Both the position numbers and the translations under genes were made by a program. Below the pieces are notes generated by a model that saw only the letters and a program-made list of their open reading frames with translations, searched no databases and had not been told where the DNA came from. Shown here piece by piece: positions 30,006 through 35,484 of a stretch of 43,667 bases of DNA. Every line of letters starts with the position of its first letter. The stretch's first letter is position 1. Origin of the DNA: Akkermansia muciniphila (GTDB lineage: Bacteria > Verrucomicrobiota > Verrucomicrobiia > Limisphaerales > UBA9464); NCBI GenBank assembly GCA_945898055.1, contig CAMDGV010000036.1, forward strand, positions 1 to 43,667. The letters run 5' to 3'.

Positions 30006-31784
30006 ATGAAAGTCCAACTCGCCTCCTTGGTCCTCTTCGTAGCGACCACTCTCGCTGGAGATCCACGACTTGACTCATGGCTCACCACAAATTCAGGGAA
30101 GTATGCCCGAATTTATACGACCCCCGCCAATCAGGCCGCGGGCAATGCTGTGAGCACGTGGAGTAATGGGACCCAAACCCAAGCTTTGCCTGCGTATGCT
30201 GGGGTGCAGGAACTTTTCTCTTCGCCTCTTTGGGTTTATATCCGTACCACCGGCCTTGGAAGTCATACCATGGGGCCTTGGGCGAACGGTAACTTTCCCA
30301 ACTTGCCCGTGAATCGTAAAGCCCTCTATCGGCTTCCCCGGGTTCCTAACGTTCCTGTTACTAAGACTCTCACTGGACTCGGAGTCATTGGTTACTTGGT
30401 GGACGGCGTCGCCCTCTATGATGGTCGGGATGCCTTTGTCTGGAATGGTACAAGCGAGACCCCGAATGGTACCGGTTATTGGAACCGCGAAGCTTACGTG
30501 AACGAGGGATCTACTTTCGACCCAGCCATGGCTCATCAAGAGCCCACGGGTACCTATCATTATCATGCCAGTCCGGTCGCACTCCGCTATCTGTTGGGTG
30601 ACCATATGACCTACAATTCAGGGACCAAAACTTACAAGGAGGCTTCAACTCCGGTGGAACGTCATTCACCTCTTCTCGGATGGGTCAGGGACGGTTTCCC
30701 AATTTATGGTCCTTATGGCTATTCAATGACCAATGGATCCGGGGGGCTGAGTCGCATGCTTTCAGGGTACCAACTTCGCAACGGTCAACGCGGTTCCGAC
30801 ACCCTCACCGATCGCGCAACACTTCCCGCCTGGGCCCAGCGGCTTTATGGGGTCAGTGCTGGCCAGCGAGGGCCCGTGGTGTCGACCGCTTATCCCTTAG
30901 GCCGTTATATGGAGGACAATGCTTTCTTGGGTGATCTCACGAATGCGTTAACGGGCAAAGCCTACCTTCAAGGGGTCGATTTCGATCTAGATGTCTCGAA
31001 TGGTCGATGGTGTGTTACCCCAGAATATCCTGAAGGAACGTATGCCTATTTCGTAACCATTGCCACTGATGGAACCCCTGTTTTCCCCTATAACATCGGA
31101 CGCGCTTTCCACGGATCCCCGACTGGAACCGCAGTCACTACGTTCTCGGAAGCGGTTAGCACTAACTTCGTAGGTGGGCCCACTTCTTCCCTCGTCTCAT
31201 CCCTCACCCCGAGCACAGGTGCTCAAGTGACTTTACGTTGGACCGCAGTGGAAGGTGGAAGCTACCAGATCGAATCGTCGACGAACCTTGCGGTCTGGAC
31301 AACAAACGCGACGGCGGTTGCGGTTACCGGTAGCTTCGGCAGTAACAGCGTTACGACGATGGCCGCTCCGCATTCGTTTTACCGTATTCGGCAAACCGAA
31401 CTTGCCACTTATGATTCGGCAGTAGGAACGGCCGATAACGGCGGCGGCGGCGGCCCTGGGCCGAATGGAGGCGGAGGAATGGGACCGATAGAGCAGCCCT
31501 TGGCTTCGGTCAGTCCGCCGTCCGCCGCCCTTGGGACCGTCTTGACTGTCACCTTTACCTTGGGCGGTATGGTGCCACCTCCGGAGATCATACCTTCTTC
31601 CGCTCTACTCGGTACCCTGACCGGGACGTCCGTCCGCCGAGCAAGCCCAACAACAGTGACCGCTAACTTTAGCCTCCCCGCCAACGCGGCTGCGGGACCT
31701 GTTAATGCGGCGGTGGTGTTCCCAGGCCCGCCAGGAATGGGGTCTGTGACCTTCTCTCTTGCGAACGGATTTATTTTCCGCTGA
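30006..31784 (+). CDS. YHYH-domain secreted protein
   Basis: A signal peptide (MKVQLASLVLFVATTLAG) leads a 592-residue secreted protein. The YHYH domain covers about 90-330 and shows its defining features: GVALYDGRDAF, TYHYHASPVALRYLLGDH, and SPLLGWVRDGFPIYGPYGY. Metal binding by the histidine pair is likely from the motif but unproven. The C-terminal part has a beta-sandwich typical of verrucomicrobial exported proteins (SYQIESSTNLAVWTTN...FYRIRQT), a glycine/proline linker (GGGGGPGPNGGGGMGP) and an Ig-like end. The next gene starts 28 bases on and encodes an MbnP-peroxidase fusion, so the two likely form an operon. Confidence 0.9.
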   Translation: MKVQLASLVLFVATTLAGDPRLDSWLTTNSGKYARIYTTPANQAAGNAVSTWSNGTQTQALPAYAGVQELFSSPLWVYIRTTGLGSHTMGPWANGNFPNLPVNRKALYRLPRVPNVPVTKTLTGLGVIGYLVDGVALYDGRDAFVWNGTSETPNGTGYWNREAYVNEGSTFDPAMAHQEPTGTYHYHASPVALRYLLGDHMTYNSGTKTYKEASTPVERHSPLLGWVRDGFPIYGPYGYSMTNGSGGLSRMLSGYQLRNGQRGSDTLTDRATLPAWAQRLYGVSAGQRGPVVSTAYPLGRYMEDNAFLGDLTNALTGKAYLQGVDFDLDVSNGRWCVTPEYPEGTYAYFVTIATDGTPVFPYNIGRAFHGSPTGTAVTTFSEAVSTNFVGGPTSSLVSSLTPSTGAQVTLRWTAVEGGSYQIESSTNLAVWTTNATAVAVTGSFGSNSVTTMAAPHSFYRIRQTELATYDSAVGTADNGGGGGPGPNGGGGMGPIEQPLASVSPPSAALGTVLTVTFTLGGMVPPPEIIPSSALLGTLTGTSVRRASPTTVTANFSLPANAAAGPVNAAVVFPGPPGMGSVTFSLANGFIFR

Positions 31785-31812: not shown

Positions 31813-33594
31813 ATGGGATCACGGTTAAAATCGTTCAGCAGACGCCTCGGGTTCATCGCTACTTTTTTTTTGGCGACACTCGAGGTGGACGCAGTGACCC
31901 TTCAGATTCGGCATTTGTTTGGAGAACGACCCCTTCGGTTGGGTGAGTTGGAAACGGTCAGCGCGGGAAGTCCAATGATGTCCGTGACCCGGTTCGATTA
32001 CTTATTGTCGGACTTCCGCTGGGTTAAATTCGATGGCTCAGAATCCCCTTTGTCCCCGCAAGTCGCTTATATCAGCGTTGGTTCTGACCGGACGTTTTTA
32101 ACCCTGACCGCGGCGCCTTTGGGAACGAGTGCTGCGTTACGTTTCCGAGTCGGACTTCCACCGCATCTTAACCACGCAAATCCCGTCCAGTTTGCTGCCC
32201 TTGATCCACTGAATCCCTCGGTGAATGGATTGCACTGGGGTTGGCAGGGCGGCTACGTGTTTATGGCCTTGGAAGGCAATTGGCGGCGGAGTGATGGGTC
32301 CCTCGATGGGTATTCTTTTCACTTGGCTACCGATGCTCTGGTGATGCCGATCGAGATACCAATTAGGGAGGGAACGGATGTGTCCGTAGTGATTCCACTT
32401 GTGCTGGATATAGCGCGAATTTTCGGTGCGGTTAAAAAACTGCCACTAGACATCGGACACACGTCGACCCATTCCCGAACAAATGATGCTCTTGCCAGTC
32501 TTATGGCGGCGAATGTAGCGCGCGCTTTTCGATGGGATCACTCTCCCGCCGCAGTTGCTGCGGTTGCTGCGGTGCCGGCGCTGAAGATCGAAATCGGCCC
32601 CAACGCGACCCCTTATCCATTTACTTTCTCTCGCCTCTTTCCTGTCCCCGCATTACCTCGCGACAATCCATTAACCGAGGAAGGCGTTCGATTAGGCGAC
32701 CGTTTGTTTGGTGAGAATTTGCTCTCCATTAATGGGAGCCAATCTTGCGCGTCCTGTCATCAGGCGTCGTCGGCCTTTACCGACGCCGGACGTCGGACCA
32801 GCCGGGGGGCGGAGGGAATCGCTGGAGCACGTAATACCCAGTCTCTTGAAAATATTGCTTGGCAGACCACATTTTTCTGGGACGGCCGAACCGCGTCGCT
32901 TCGTGAGCAGGTTCTTCAACCCATTGGCAACCCCATTGAAATGCATGAGTCTTTAACAAATGTCGTTTCAAAATTGGAGCGTGCCGGTTATGGCGCCGCT
33001 TTCGAGGCCGCTTTTGGAACTTCATTGATCACTGTCGACCGCTTGTCGCGGGCCTTGGAGCAATACCTTCTTACCCGGGTCTCGGGTGACTCCAAGTTTG
33101 ACCGAGCCGCTCGGGGCGAAGAGATTCTGACGTCGGAAGAACAGCGTGGATTTGAACTTTTCCAGACTGAATATGATCCTAGGCACGAACAGTTTGGGGC
33201 CGACTGTTTTCATTGCCACGGAGGGACATTTTTCAGCGACTTTGCCTTTCACAATAACGGACTGGATCGGGCCGAGTCGCTACGGGATACCGGCCGAGCG
33301 GCAATTACCGGACGTTCTTCCGACCGAGGGCGATTCAAAACGCCTTCCTTACGGAACGTCGCCATAACTGGGCCCTATATGCATGACGGCCGCTTCGCCA
33401 GCTTGGAGGAAGTGGTAGCGCATTATAGCACTGGGGTGCAACGGAGTCCGGCCCTCGACCCCAATCTAGCCAAGCATCCCGCCAATGGAATCAGCCTTTG
33501 TTCTGCGGATCAGCGGGCGTTGGTCGCTTTTTTAAAGACTCTTACTGAAGTCTCCTTGGTTAATTCAGAAAAGCCAAAACGAAGACAACCTTGA
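31813..33594 (+). CDS. Fusion of an MbnP-like copper protein and a di-heme MbnH/MauG-type peroxidase
   Basis: Two domains that are usually separate genes are joined in one ~593-residue exported chain. Residues ~1-25 are a leader (RRLGFIATFFLATLEVDA). Residues ~26-260 match the MbnP family, with GLHWGWQGGYVF (W142 and W144), YSFHLATDALVMPIEI and LDIGHTSTHSRTNDALA. Residues ~275-585 are a cytochrome c peroxidase/MauG-type domain with heme sites C312-x2-C315-H316 (CASCH) and C465-x2-C468-H469 (CFHCH), plus WDGRTASLREQVLQPIGNPIEM and TPSLRNVAITGPYMHDGRF. In the known pair the heme enzyme oxidises an MbnP tryptophan to kynurenine to make a copper site. The ATG at 31813 is chosen over an upstream TTG that would overlap the YHYH gene. 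An intramolecular version of that reaction is inferred. Confidence 0.9.
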   Translation: MGSRLKSFSRRLGFIATFFLATLEVDAVTLQIRHLFGERPLRLGELETVSAGSPMMSVTRFDYLLSDFRWVKFDGSESPLSPQVAYISVGSDRTFLTLTAAPLGTSAALRFRVGLPPHLNHANPVQFAALDPLNPSVNGLHWGWQGGYVFMALEGNWRRSDGSLDGYSFHLATDALVMPIEIPIREGTDVSVVIPLVLDIARIFGAVKKLPLDIGHTSTHSRTNDALASLMAANVARAFRWDHSPAAVAAVAAVPALKIEIGPNATPYPFTFSRLFPVPALPRDNPLTEEGVRLGDRLFGENLLSINGSQSCASCHQASSAFTDAGRRTSRGAEGIAGARNTQSLENIAWQTTFFWDGRTASLREQVLQPIGNPIEMHESLTNVVSKLERAGYGAAFEAAFGTSLITVDRLSRALEQYLLTRVSGDSKFDRAARGEEILTSEEQRGFELFQTEYDPRHEQFGADCFHCHGGTFFSDFAFHNNGLDRAESLRDTGRAAITGRSSDRGRFKTPSLRNVAITGPYMHDGRFASLEEVVAHYSTGVQRSPALDPNLAKHPANGISLCSADQRALVAFLKTLTEVSLVNSEKPKRRQP

Positions 33595-33789: not shown

Positions 33790-35484
33790 ATGACTTTTCA
33801 ATCTGGTGCTTCTCGATGCAATTTGGCCCTCAGTCTTTTGCTGGCAGTGAGTGCTGTCCTCCGATTAGCTGCGGCACCGGTTAACCCGAGGCCCCTTCAG
33901 ATCTTCATTCTCGCCGGTCAATCTAATATGGAAGGTCAGTCGGTGGTCGATCTCGAGGGACCTGACTATAACGACGGCCAAGGCACTTTGGCTCGTTTAA
34001 TGCAGGATCCCGCCAAGGGGTTTGCGCTGCGGCATCTGCGAGATAATCAAGGGCGATGGACCGTTCGCAATGATGTGTGGGTACGCTATCAACTCGACTC
34101 CGGAAAGCTCCTTCACGGTCGGTTGAGCGTGGGATTTTCGGGGTATGGCGACGCGCATCATTTTGGGCCTGAACTTCAATTTGGTCATCGAGTGGGTGAC
34201 GCTATCGACGCGCCCGTTCTTTTGATTAAAACCGCTTGGGGGGGTAAAAGCCTCCATACCGATTTTCGCCCACCTTCAGCGGGCGGCCAAGTCGGCTCGT
34301 CTTACACTCGGATGATCGCTGAGATCCGGGGGGCACTGGCTCGATTAACCACTGATTTCCCTGAGTTTACTGGTTTAAAACCGGGGTTAGCGGGATTTGT
34401 TTGGTATCAAGGTTGGAACGACGGCGTTGACCCAATTCATGCTGTGCCAGCGTATGAATTTAACTTGGCGTGTCTTATCCGCGATGTTCGTAAAGAATTT
34501 GAAGTATCCGATCTTCCCGTGGTGATTGGTGAGTTGACTGGGCCTTGGAAAGAGGCTCCGCCTGAGTGGACCGCATTGCGTCGCGCTCAAGCCAGGGTGG
34601 CTGGCCGCAAAGAGTTTCTTGGCACTGTCGCCTTTGCCCCAACCGCAGAGTTTGTCCGACCCGCCCAAGAATCACCCAACACCGGCCATGGGCACCACGA
34701 GTTCGGGAATGCTGAGACTGGCTTTCTCGTGGGGGACGCGCTTGGGCAGGCCATGTTAGGCCTACTGAAGCTTCAGCAGAAATCCAACGGATCGGCGACA
34801 CCGACACCCCCTCCCGCGACAGACCTATCCGATCGGAGCGGTGTTCGGTTCGAACCGATCCGCCGAGACATTGAAGGATGGGCTGTAGAAATAGATCCCT
34901 CCTTAATCGAGGGCCAACATCAACCGGCTGGGAACCGAGCCCTGACGATGCTCGCCAATCACTTACAGCGAATTCGAATCCTAGTGTCGCCCGTCCCATT
35001 AGCTCAGATGCAGAAGGTAGGAATCTGGATCGAGCGAGATCATCCGCGTCTTCATTCGATGCAATATCATCCCAGCCGAGATTGGCTGCTCGCAAATCGG
35101 CATGATCCACGCCTGACCCGCAAAGTTCATATTACTCAAGCGGCAGAACTGCTCTCACGAGAACAGATGTTGAAGCATCCGGCCGTCATTCTGCATGAAT
35201 TAGCTCATGGATATCATGACCAAGTACTAGGATTTGACGATGCGTCGATCCGATTAGCCTACGAAGCGGCAAAGAAAGCGGGGATTTACGAACGAGTCCT
35301 ACTTTATACCGGAGAAAAAGTCCGCCACTACGGGCTCACCACACCGCAAGAATATTTTGCCGAAGGCACCGAAGCCTATTTCTATAGAAATGATTTTTAC
35401 CCGTTTGTCCGCGCCGAACTTAAGGAGCACGATCCGGTTCTACACGCTCTCCTAGAAAAAGTATGGGGTTCCGCGTCGCATTAA
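33790..35484 (+). CDS. SASA-type esterase fused to an HExxH metallopeptidase-like domain
   Basis: A signal peptide (about 1-28) is followed by a sialate-O-acetylesterase-like SGNH domain (about 35-340) with catalytic serine S45 in ILAGQSNMEGQ, the block IKTAWGGKSL, and a late histidine region TGHGHHEFGNAETGFLVGDALGQAM. A proline/threonine linker (about 340-355) leads to a C-terminal domain (about 370-564) with the zincin motif H469-E-L-A-H473, followed 40-60 residues on by EYFAEGTEAYF, whose glutamates could be the third zinc ligand, and NDFYPFVRAELKEHDP. Similar C-terminal domains occur alone in planctomycete and verrucomicrobial proteins; the fusion is unusual. Substrates are unknown, likely acetylated extracellular glycans for the first domain. 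Confidence 0.88.
   Translation: MTFQSGASRCNLALSLLLAVSAVLRLAAAPVNPRPLQIFILAGQSNMEGQSVVDLEGPDYNDGQGTLARLMQDPAKGFALRHLRDNQGRWTVRNDVWVRYQLDSGKLLHGRLSVGFSGYGDAHHFGPELQFGHRVGDAIDAPVLLIKTAWGGKSLHTDFRPPSAGGQVGSSYTRMIAEIRGALARLTTDFPEFTGLKPGLAGFVWYQGWNDGVDPIHAVPAYEFNLACLIRDVRKEFEVSDLPVVIGELTGPWKEAPPEWTALRRAQARVAGRKEFLGTVAFAPTAEFVRPAQESPNTGHGHHEFGNAETGFLVGDALGQAMLGLLKLQQKSNGSATPTPPPATDLSDRSGVRFEPIRRDIEGWAVEIDPSLIEGQHQPAGNRALTMLANHLQRIRILVSPVPLAQMQKVGIWIERDHPRLHSMQYHPSRDWLLANRHDPRLTRKVHITQAAELLSREQMLKHPAVILHELAHGYHDQVLGFDDASIRLAYEAAKKAGIYERVLLYTGEKVRHYGLTTPQEYFAEGTEAYFYRNDFYPFVRAELKEHDPVLHALLEKVWGSASH

Follow-up and report, generated by a model that had tools for sequence, protein, structure and literature searches.

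An MbnP-MbnH fusion in Verrucomicrobiota, a candidate self-maturing copper protein

MbnP and MbnH belong to the few systems in which oxidation of a protein's own tryptophan is thought to create a metal site. For a separate MbnP/MbnH pair, Manesis et al. in 2021 reportedly described the conversion of tryptophan to kynurenine by the heme enzyme and Cu(I) binding that depends on kynurenine made from the first tryptophan. The gene discussed here encodes relatives of such a copper protein and its enzyme in one molecule. It lies in a stretch of 43,667 nucleotides, the whole of which we call the window, and the original prediction read it as an MbnP-like domain fused to a di-heme peroxidase domain. 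That reading is borne out by two Pfam families that both score above cut-off in one open frame, which contains no internal stop when the sequence is read directly: MbnP (PF20243) matches residues 27-206 with 91.8 bits against a gathering cut-off of 27 (E 7e-26), and CCP_MauG (PF03150) matches residues 290-437 with 166 bits against a cut-off of 25.6 (E 1e-48). The features are collected in Table 1.

Table 1. Positions in the window of the fused gene, its domains and motifs, and its upstream neighbor
Feature	Position	Strand	Remarks
YHYH-protein gene (PF14240), putative partner	30006..31784	+	ends 28 bases upstream of the fused gene
Fused MbnP-MbnH gene	31813..33594	+	593 aa; ATG at 31813, stop ends 33594
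N-terminal 26 residues, signal-peptide-like	31813..31890	+	sequence reading and a low-confidence model helix, residues 8-18
MbnP domain	31891..32430	+	residues 27-206 by Pfam; 7l6g fold match over 24-245
H141-W142-G143-W144, WxW motif	32233..32244	+	W142 is the predicted kynurenine site
H170, predicted copper ligand	32320..32322	+	at the place of the HLG-motif His of classical MbnP
Stretch between the Pfam/NCBIfam domain matches	32431..32655	+	residues 207-281
H220, predicted copper ligand	32470..32472	+	at the place of the CM(S/G)-motif Met of classical MbnP
MbnH/MauG-type di-heme domain	32656..33570	+	residues 282-586; TIGR04039 E 1.4e-67, under cut-off; 6e1c Z 32
First c-heme motif, CASCH (312-316)	32746..32760	+	C312, C315 and H316 in 117/117
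W356, Trp in the FWDGR segment	32878..32880	+	117/117
Second c-heme motif, CFHCH (465-469)	33205..33219	+	115/115 rows reaching that far
Y538, aligned with the Tyr common to MbnH proteins	33424..33426	+	112/113 rows reaching that far; 7/7 in alignment A4

One polypeptide combines a domain of MbnP fold with a di-heme domain of MbnH/MauG type, an architecture shared by many relatives. Searches of its own genome with the fused protein, with PF20243, and with PF03150 (at E 0.001) find the fused gene and nothing else. The chain is probably exported to the periplasm. Scores against the NCBIfam models fall below the curated cut-offs, with 38.7 bits against 140 for TIGR04052 (the MbnP equivalog, with four Cys and WxW), 228 bits against 363 for TIGR04039 (MbnH), and 187 bits against 444 for TIGR03791 (MauG). 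Because both halves lie far under these cut-offs, we regard the protein as a relative of the MbnP/MbnH pair that falls outside NCBI's narrow families.

An AlphaFold2 model of the fused chain, built from 54 sequences, has a mean pLDDT of 88.4 and a pTM of 0.87. Compared with known folds by VIA-align, the model matches MbnH (6e1c) with Z 32.0 over residues 267-586 (305 residues) and MbnP (7l6g) with Z 17.9 over residues 24-245 (209 residues, rmsd 3.4). A mismatch between the N-terminal domain and the MbnP profile had been named in advance as something that would count against the fusion; the profile and the 7l6g fold both match. Searched against the PDB, a sequence profile of the MbnP domain reaches 7l6g at just E 0.015, so the domain's identity rests on Pfam and the fold. 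The fold scores indicate that the two halves match best the two partners of one known pair. In the model, the stretch between the domain matches contains H220, a helix at residues 226-238, and a coil linker, and the alignment to 7l6g ends within it. The pTM suggests that the two domains are packed in a fixed fashion. In addition, for 19 of 24 rows of the bacterial cytochrome c peroxidase (bCcP) type, the alignment starts in the WxW segment (model residues 140-144), an indirect hint that in the model this segment packs against the heme domain. CorA and MopE are not among the rows displayed by the PDB sequence or fold comparisons, an absence that excludes nothing.

The residues on which a modified copper site would depend are close to invariant. 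The GLHWGWQGGY segment with W142 and W144, singled out in the original prediction, is present, and across 117 distinct fused chains, the window's included (158 fused ORFs minus rows sharing the last 320 residues), W142, H170, and H220 are kept in all, W144 in 116 (L051 has P instead), and H141 in 114 (Tyr in the other three). Two peptide patterns, one with WxW in it, served to find the best 80 of 278 loci, and the WxW counts there therefore hold partly by construction; this bias does not touch the 48 rows that came from profile or protein searches, and they retain W142, H170, and H220 throughout, W144 in 47, and H141 in 48. Eight separate MbnPs that we aligned have WxW and counterparts of W142, W144, and H170 without exception, H170 falling on the His of their HLG-type motif. 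H220 aligns with the Met of CM(S/G) in six classical MbnPs. By reading of the sequence there is no Cys in residues 1-311 of the window chain, and the four conserved Cys named in the molecule title of 7l6g are missing from it; over the stretch 26-270 of 118 fused rows (the window counted twice), 81 have no Cys, 30 have one, 5 have two, 1 has three, and 1 has six. With neither the CMS Met nor the four-Cys signature present, and with the NCBIfam cut-offs missed, the copper site may differ from that of classical MbnP.

A precedent for a two-histidine site comes from the gammaproteobacterial methanotrophs. Passages of PMC3912023 describe CorA as a Cu(I) protein that is co-transcribed with a di-heme partner and has a site of kynurenine and two His, and CorA/CorB and MopE/SACCP share a Cu(I)-kynurenine-two-His site and an adjacent di-heme gene; they are separate proteins, surface bound or secreted, unlike the single chain here. 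MbnP itself has, according to passages of PMC3621798, no marked sequence similarity to CorA/MopE. Their invariance, together with the Kyn-His-His site in CorA as an analogy, leads us to infer that H170 and H220 bind copper.

The reading we favor, and hold to be fairly probable, is that the fused chain is a self-maturing copper protein whose attached heme domain oxidizes W142 to kynurenine and thereby gives a Cu(I) site. Peroxide or oxygen would charge the di-heme domain to a high-valent state, and the charged domain would oxidize W142, either in its own chain or in another one. H170 and H220, perhaps joined by H141, would then form a tight Cu(I) site with kynurenine-142. The linkage would keep the enzyme beside its product at 1:1, and the protein would serve to capture or buffer copper in the periplasm, with no need of methanobactin. 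W142 oxidation, within-chain action, and copper binding are all extrapolated from the characterized separate pairs. The statement that no methanobactin gene accompanies the fusion is supported for the MbnB family (PF05114), no member of which was found in this 95% complete genome. A further-reaching version, which we consider doubtful, has the chain making kynurenine-142 and its Kyn/His copper site staying wired to both hemes as a self-maturing copper-heme oxidoreductase. The site would again draw on H170, H220, and possibly H141, a His thus taking the place of the Met of classical MbnP, and the protein would be a three-metal redox enzyme with a standing periplasmic function in verrucomicrobia and planctomycetes without methanobactin.

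A rival that we think unlikely is a permanent electron-transfer complex, in which MbnP-bound copper exchanges electrons with the hemes, for example by coupling the reduction of peroxide to the oxidation of Cu(I). On this view a single modification of the Trp may still take place, without being the reason why the domains are linked. It can be argued that a lifelong linkage of enzyme and product is unnecessary for a one-turnover modification. The fixed packing suggested by the pTM of 0.87 and the predicted His-rich copper site fit this alternative, as do some of the neighboring genes: a CusA/CzcA-type RND pump gene lies directly upstream of the fused gene in locus L083, and among the best 80 of 278 loci, one histidine-kinase cluster occurs in 16 and one response-regulator cluster in 15. 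The nearest NCBIfam model for the kinase in L111 is a heavy-metal sensor, under cut-off; for the regulator in L066 it is PmrA, with a heavy-metal model second, also under cut-off. Against electron transfer as the reason for the linkage, WxW is kept exactly as in the pairs for which the modification has been described.

The neighborhood bears on a second, distinctly less probable alternative, namely that the di-heme domain has a different substrate, for instance the YHYH protein encoded upstream, and that docking or copper delivery is all that the MbnP domain does. A YHYH gene stands directly upstream in 55 of the 80 nearest loci (the best 80 of 278), with 21 lacking it and 4 without room, yet this genome has just two YHYH matches in all, the sole yardstick for the adjacency counts. 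Passages of PMC7824862 describe the YHYH domain as predicted to bind zinc. Among the relatives' loci YHYH is directly upstream in 15 of 30 (10 without, 3 without room, and 2 without an MbnP match), and in the phylum-wide set, scored over a flank of only 1.5 kb and with one split-gene piece omitted, in 6 of 27, whereas the fused chains there keep W142. The relatives' and phylum-wide sets include the window, and the nearest-80 and relatives' sets overlap in genomes; a poorer distance rule gave 7/27 and 11/30, and an earlier count of the nearest loci gave 56/80. YHYH as a universal partner is rejected on the phylum-wide count, and the gene is a frequent but clade-limited neighbor. The YHYH protein has a beta-rich C-terminal tail, and its model, with a pLDDT of 64, was too poor for a fold search.

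A Pfam scan of 14 proteins of the window turned up no recognizable copper gene. Downstream in the window, positions 33790-35484 encode a carbohydrate esterase of the SASA type (PF03629); the C-terminal half of this protein has, by eye, a zinc-peptidase-like HELAHGYH motif, and the gene may be an esterase-peptidase fusion. In seven other loci (L095, L111, L121, L124, L128, L130, and L133) the fused gene is closely followed, on its own strand, by a gene for a protein of some 840-860 residues; the two that were scanned, in L111 and L133, match glucose/sorbosone dehydrogenase (PF07995).

The di-heme domain itself has the two c-heme motifs that the original prediction pointed out, both present and conserved among the fused chains. 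We take W356 to be at the position of the superfamily's inter-heme Trp, and Y538 is presumably the heme axial Tyr of MauG/MbnH. MauG oxidizes Trp, acting in trans on methylamine dehydrogenase to form TTQ. The domain shares the di-heme fold with MauG of methylamine utilization (Z 26.7-29.1), with the fused protein under the TIGR03791 cut-off, and a search with a Methylobacterium MauG at E 1e-60 listed no match. It is quite improbable that the chain is an ordinary bCcP with an accessory domain, detoxifying peroxide. Its membership in CCP_MauG is in line with such a role, and by fold MauG and the best bCcPs (all bCcPs together span Z 18.4-28.4) are tied, so that only MbnH stands clear; since PF03150 covers MauG and MbnH as well, the family match cannot decide for bCcP. 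By sequence, the best PDB relative is 6e1c, the MbnH of Methylosinus trichosporium, about twelve orders of magnitude ahead of the best bCcP. In addition, bCcPs are known to have Met or His where MbnH has its shared Tyr, and the fused chain keeps the Tyr (alignment A4, 7 rows, contained no bCcP). Relatives in the same order or family groups have another di-heme enzyme (L179-L185), 40-42% like this heme domain, in which profile A2 detects no MbnP domain at E 1. A different N-terminal stretch is common to six of these seven.

The fusion recurs in many genomes. Among GTDB genomes we found 278 relatives, and of the best 80, 79 have both domains fused in one frame. By their record labels these 80 are mostly from Verrucomicrobiota, with 4 from Planctomycetota/Phycisphaeraceae, 1 from Fimbriimonadia, 1 from Proteobacteria, and 1 labeled simply as a bacterium. 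The sole exception, L059 (G008:C139), is split by a frame change and a TGA; it is the closest homologue (87-90% identical), and the break is either a MAG error or a sign of a decaying gene. In the search for relatives, 44 of 59 genomes match, many to the heme half only, and 27 of 30 loci, the window included, have an ORF with both domains; the 30 include partial or frame-broken members such as L017 and L025. A missed stop or an assembly join had been named as refuting the fusion, and neither was found: the same open frame in independent genomes rules out two genes joined by error, and with 79 of 80 loci and 25 of 26 phylum-wide genes fused (the window's own among them), we give such an artefact practically no credence.

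A phylum-wide search for the two-domain architecture, which had been suggested as a check, covered 387 sampled genomes and found PF20243 above cut-off in 22 of them. These carry 26 MbnP genes, of which 25 are fused, counting the window's and that of G166, which is in two pieces with frame changes flanking the fused frame on both sides but enters as one gene; the other, in G179, is cut short. A separate, unfused MbnP in the phylum was considered for G179, the sole non-fused Pfam match, and set aside, as the gene ends early and is followed by what looks by eye like a transposase ORF. This truncated gene (L052, G179:C1) also has a YHYH frame upstream. A gene in G295, found by profile A2 only, is interrupted at the contig end. 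Fusion is the usual state of the MbnP family in this phylum.

Quick trees were made from every second fused locus (40 of 79 picked, one too short dropped) plus the window. In both, a single branch sets the fused chains apart from the other rows, with SH-aLRT 100 for MbnH (40 fused of 53 rows) and 98 for MbnP (40 fused of 48 rows). The non-fused rows are 9 labeled as separate MbnH (the Diaphorobacter one has no annotated MbnP next to it), 4 other di-heme proteins, and 8 separate MbnPs, all from plasmids. A single origin of the fusion is favored, and it is not proved because the separate rows in the trees are few. Each half is already known and the architecture is readable from Pfam; in the literature passages covered, we found no description of a natural MbnP-MbnH fusion, a statement that leaves aside the two main MbnP/MbnH papers, which may well mention one. 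The words "fusion" and "fused" do not occur in PMC3621798, nor does "fusion" in PMC8788703.

The closest comparison is with MbnP (7l6g) and MbnH (6e1c) of Methylosinus trichosporium OB3b, which share with the fused chain the folds, WxW, the HLG-type His, the two CXXCH motifs, the MbnH-type Tyr, and the gene order P then H. They differ in being separate proteins with a four-Cys signature and the CMS Met, whereas here there is one chain and both are absent; furthermore, no MbnB-family gene was found in this genome, and the halves are under the NCBIfam cut-offs. The MbnP-family protein of Deinococcus radiodurans resembles the fused chain in matching Pfam MbnP yet scoring under TIGR04052, and in having WxW. 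In D. radiodurans and D. grandis, by contrast, the MbnP and di-heme peroxidase genes are separate, and no His aligns with H141 or H220. Passages of PMC9426467 describe MbnPH-like genes as occurring with copper genes. By annotation, 5 of the 8 separate-MbnP loci lie beside copper or methanobactin genes: D. radiodurans beside CopC and CopD, D. grandis with a copper resistance protein nearby, Paracoccus with PCu(A)C and SCO nearby, and two Methylocystis loci beside mbn genes; near the other three, in Pseudoalteromonas, Trichormus, and Ideonella, there is no annotated copper gene. Several MbnH-type di-heme proteins (L169:4899-6050, L170:4914-6068, L174:4834-6003, L175:4854-6125, and L176:3885-5045) are labeled "methanobactin export MATE transporter MbnM", a label that looks wrong, since L169 has both heme motifs and L176 matches 6e1c at E 1.5e-201.

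A transient two-protein complex is hard to study, and a natural 1:1 fusion is a ready-made enzyme-substrate complex, suited to structure work and time-resolved spectroscopy. At the putative copper site it proposes a precise, testable change, from Met to His with loss of the four-Cys signature. It also shows the MbnP/MbnH system outside methanotrophs as a fixed unit.
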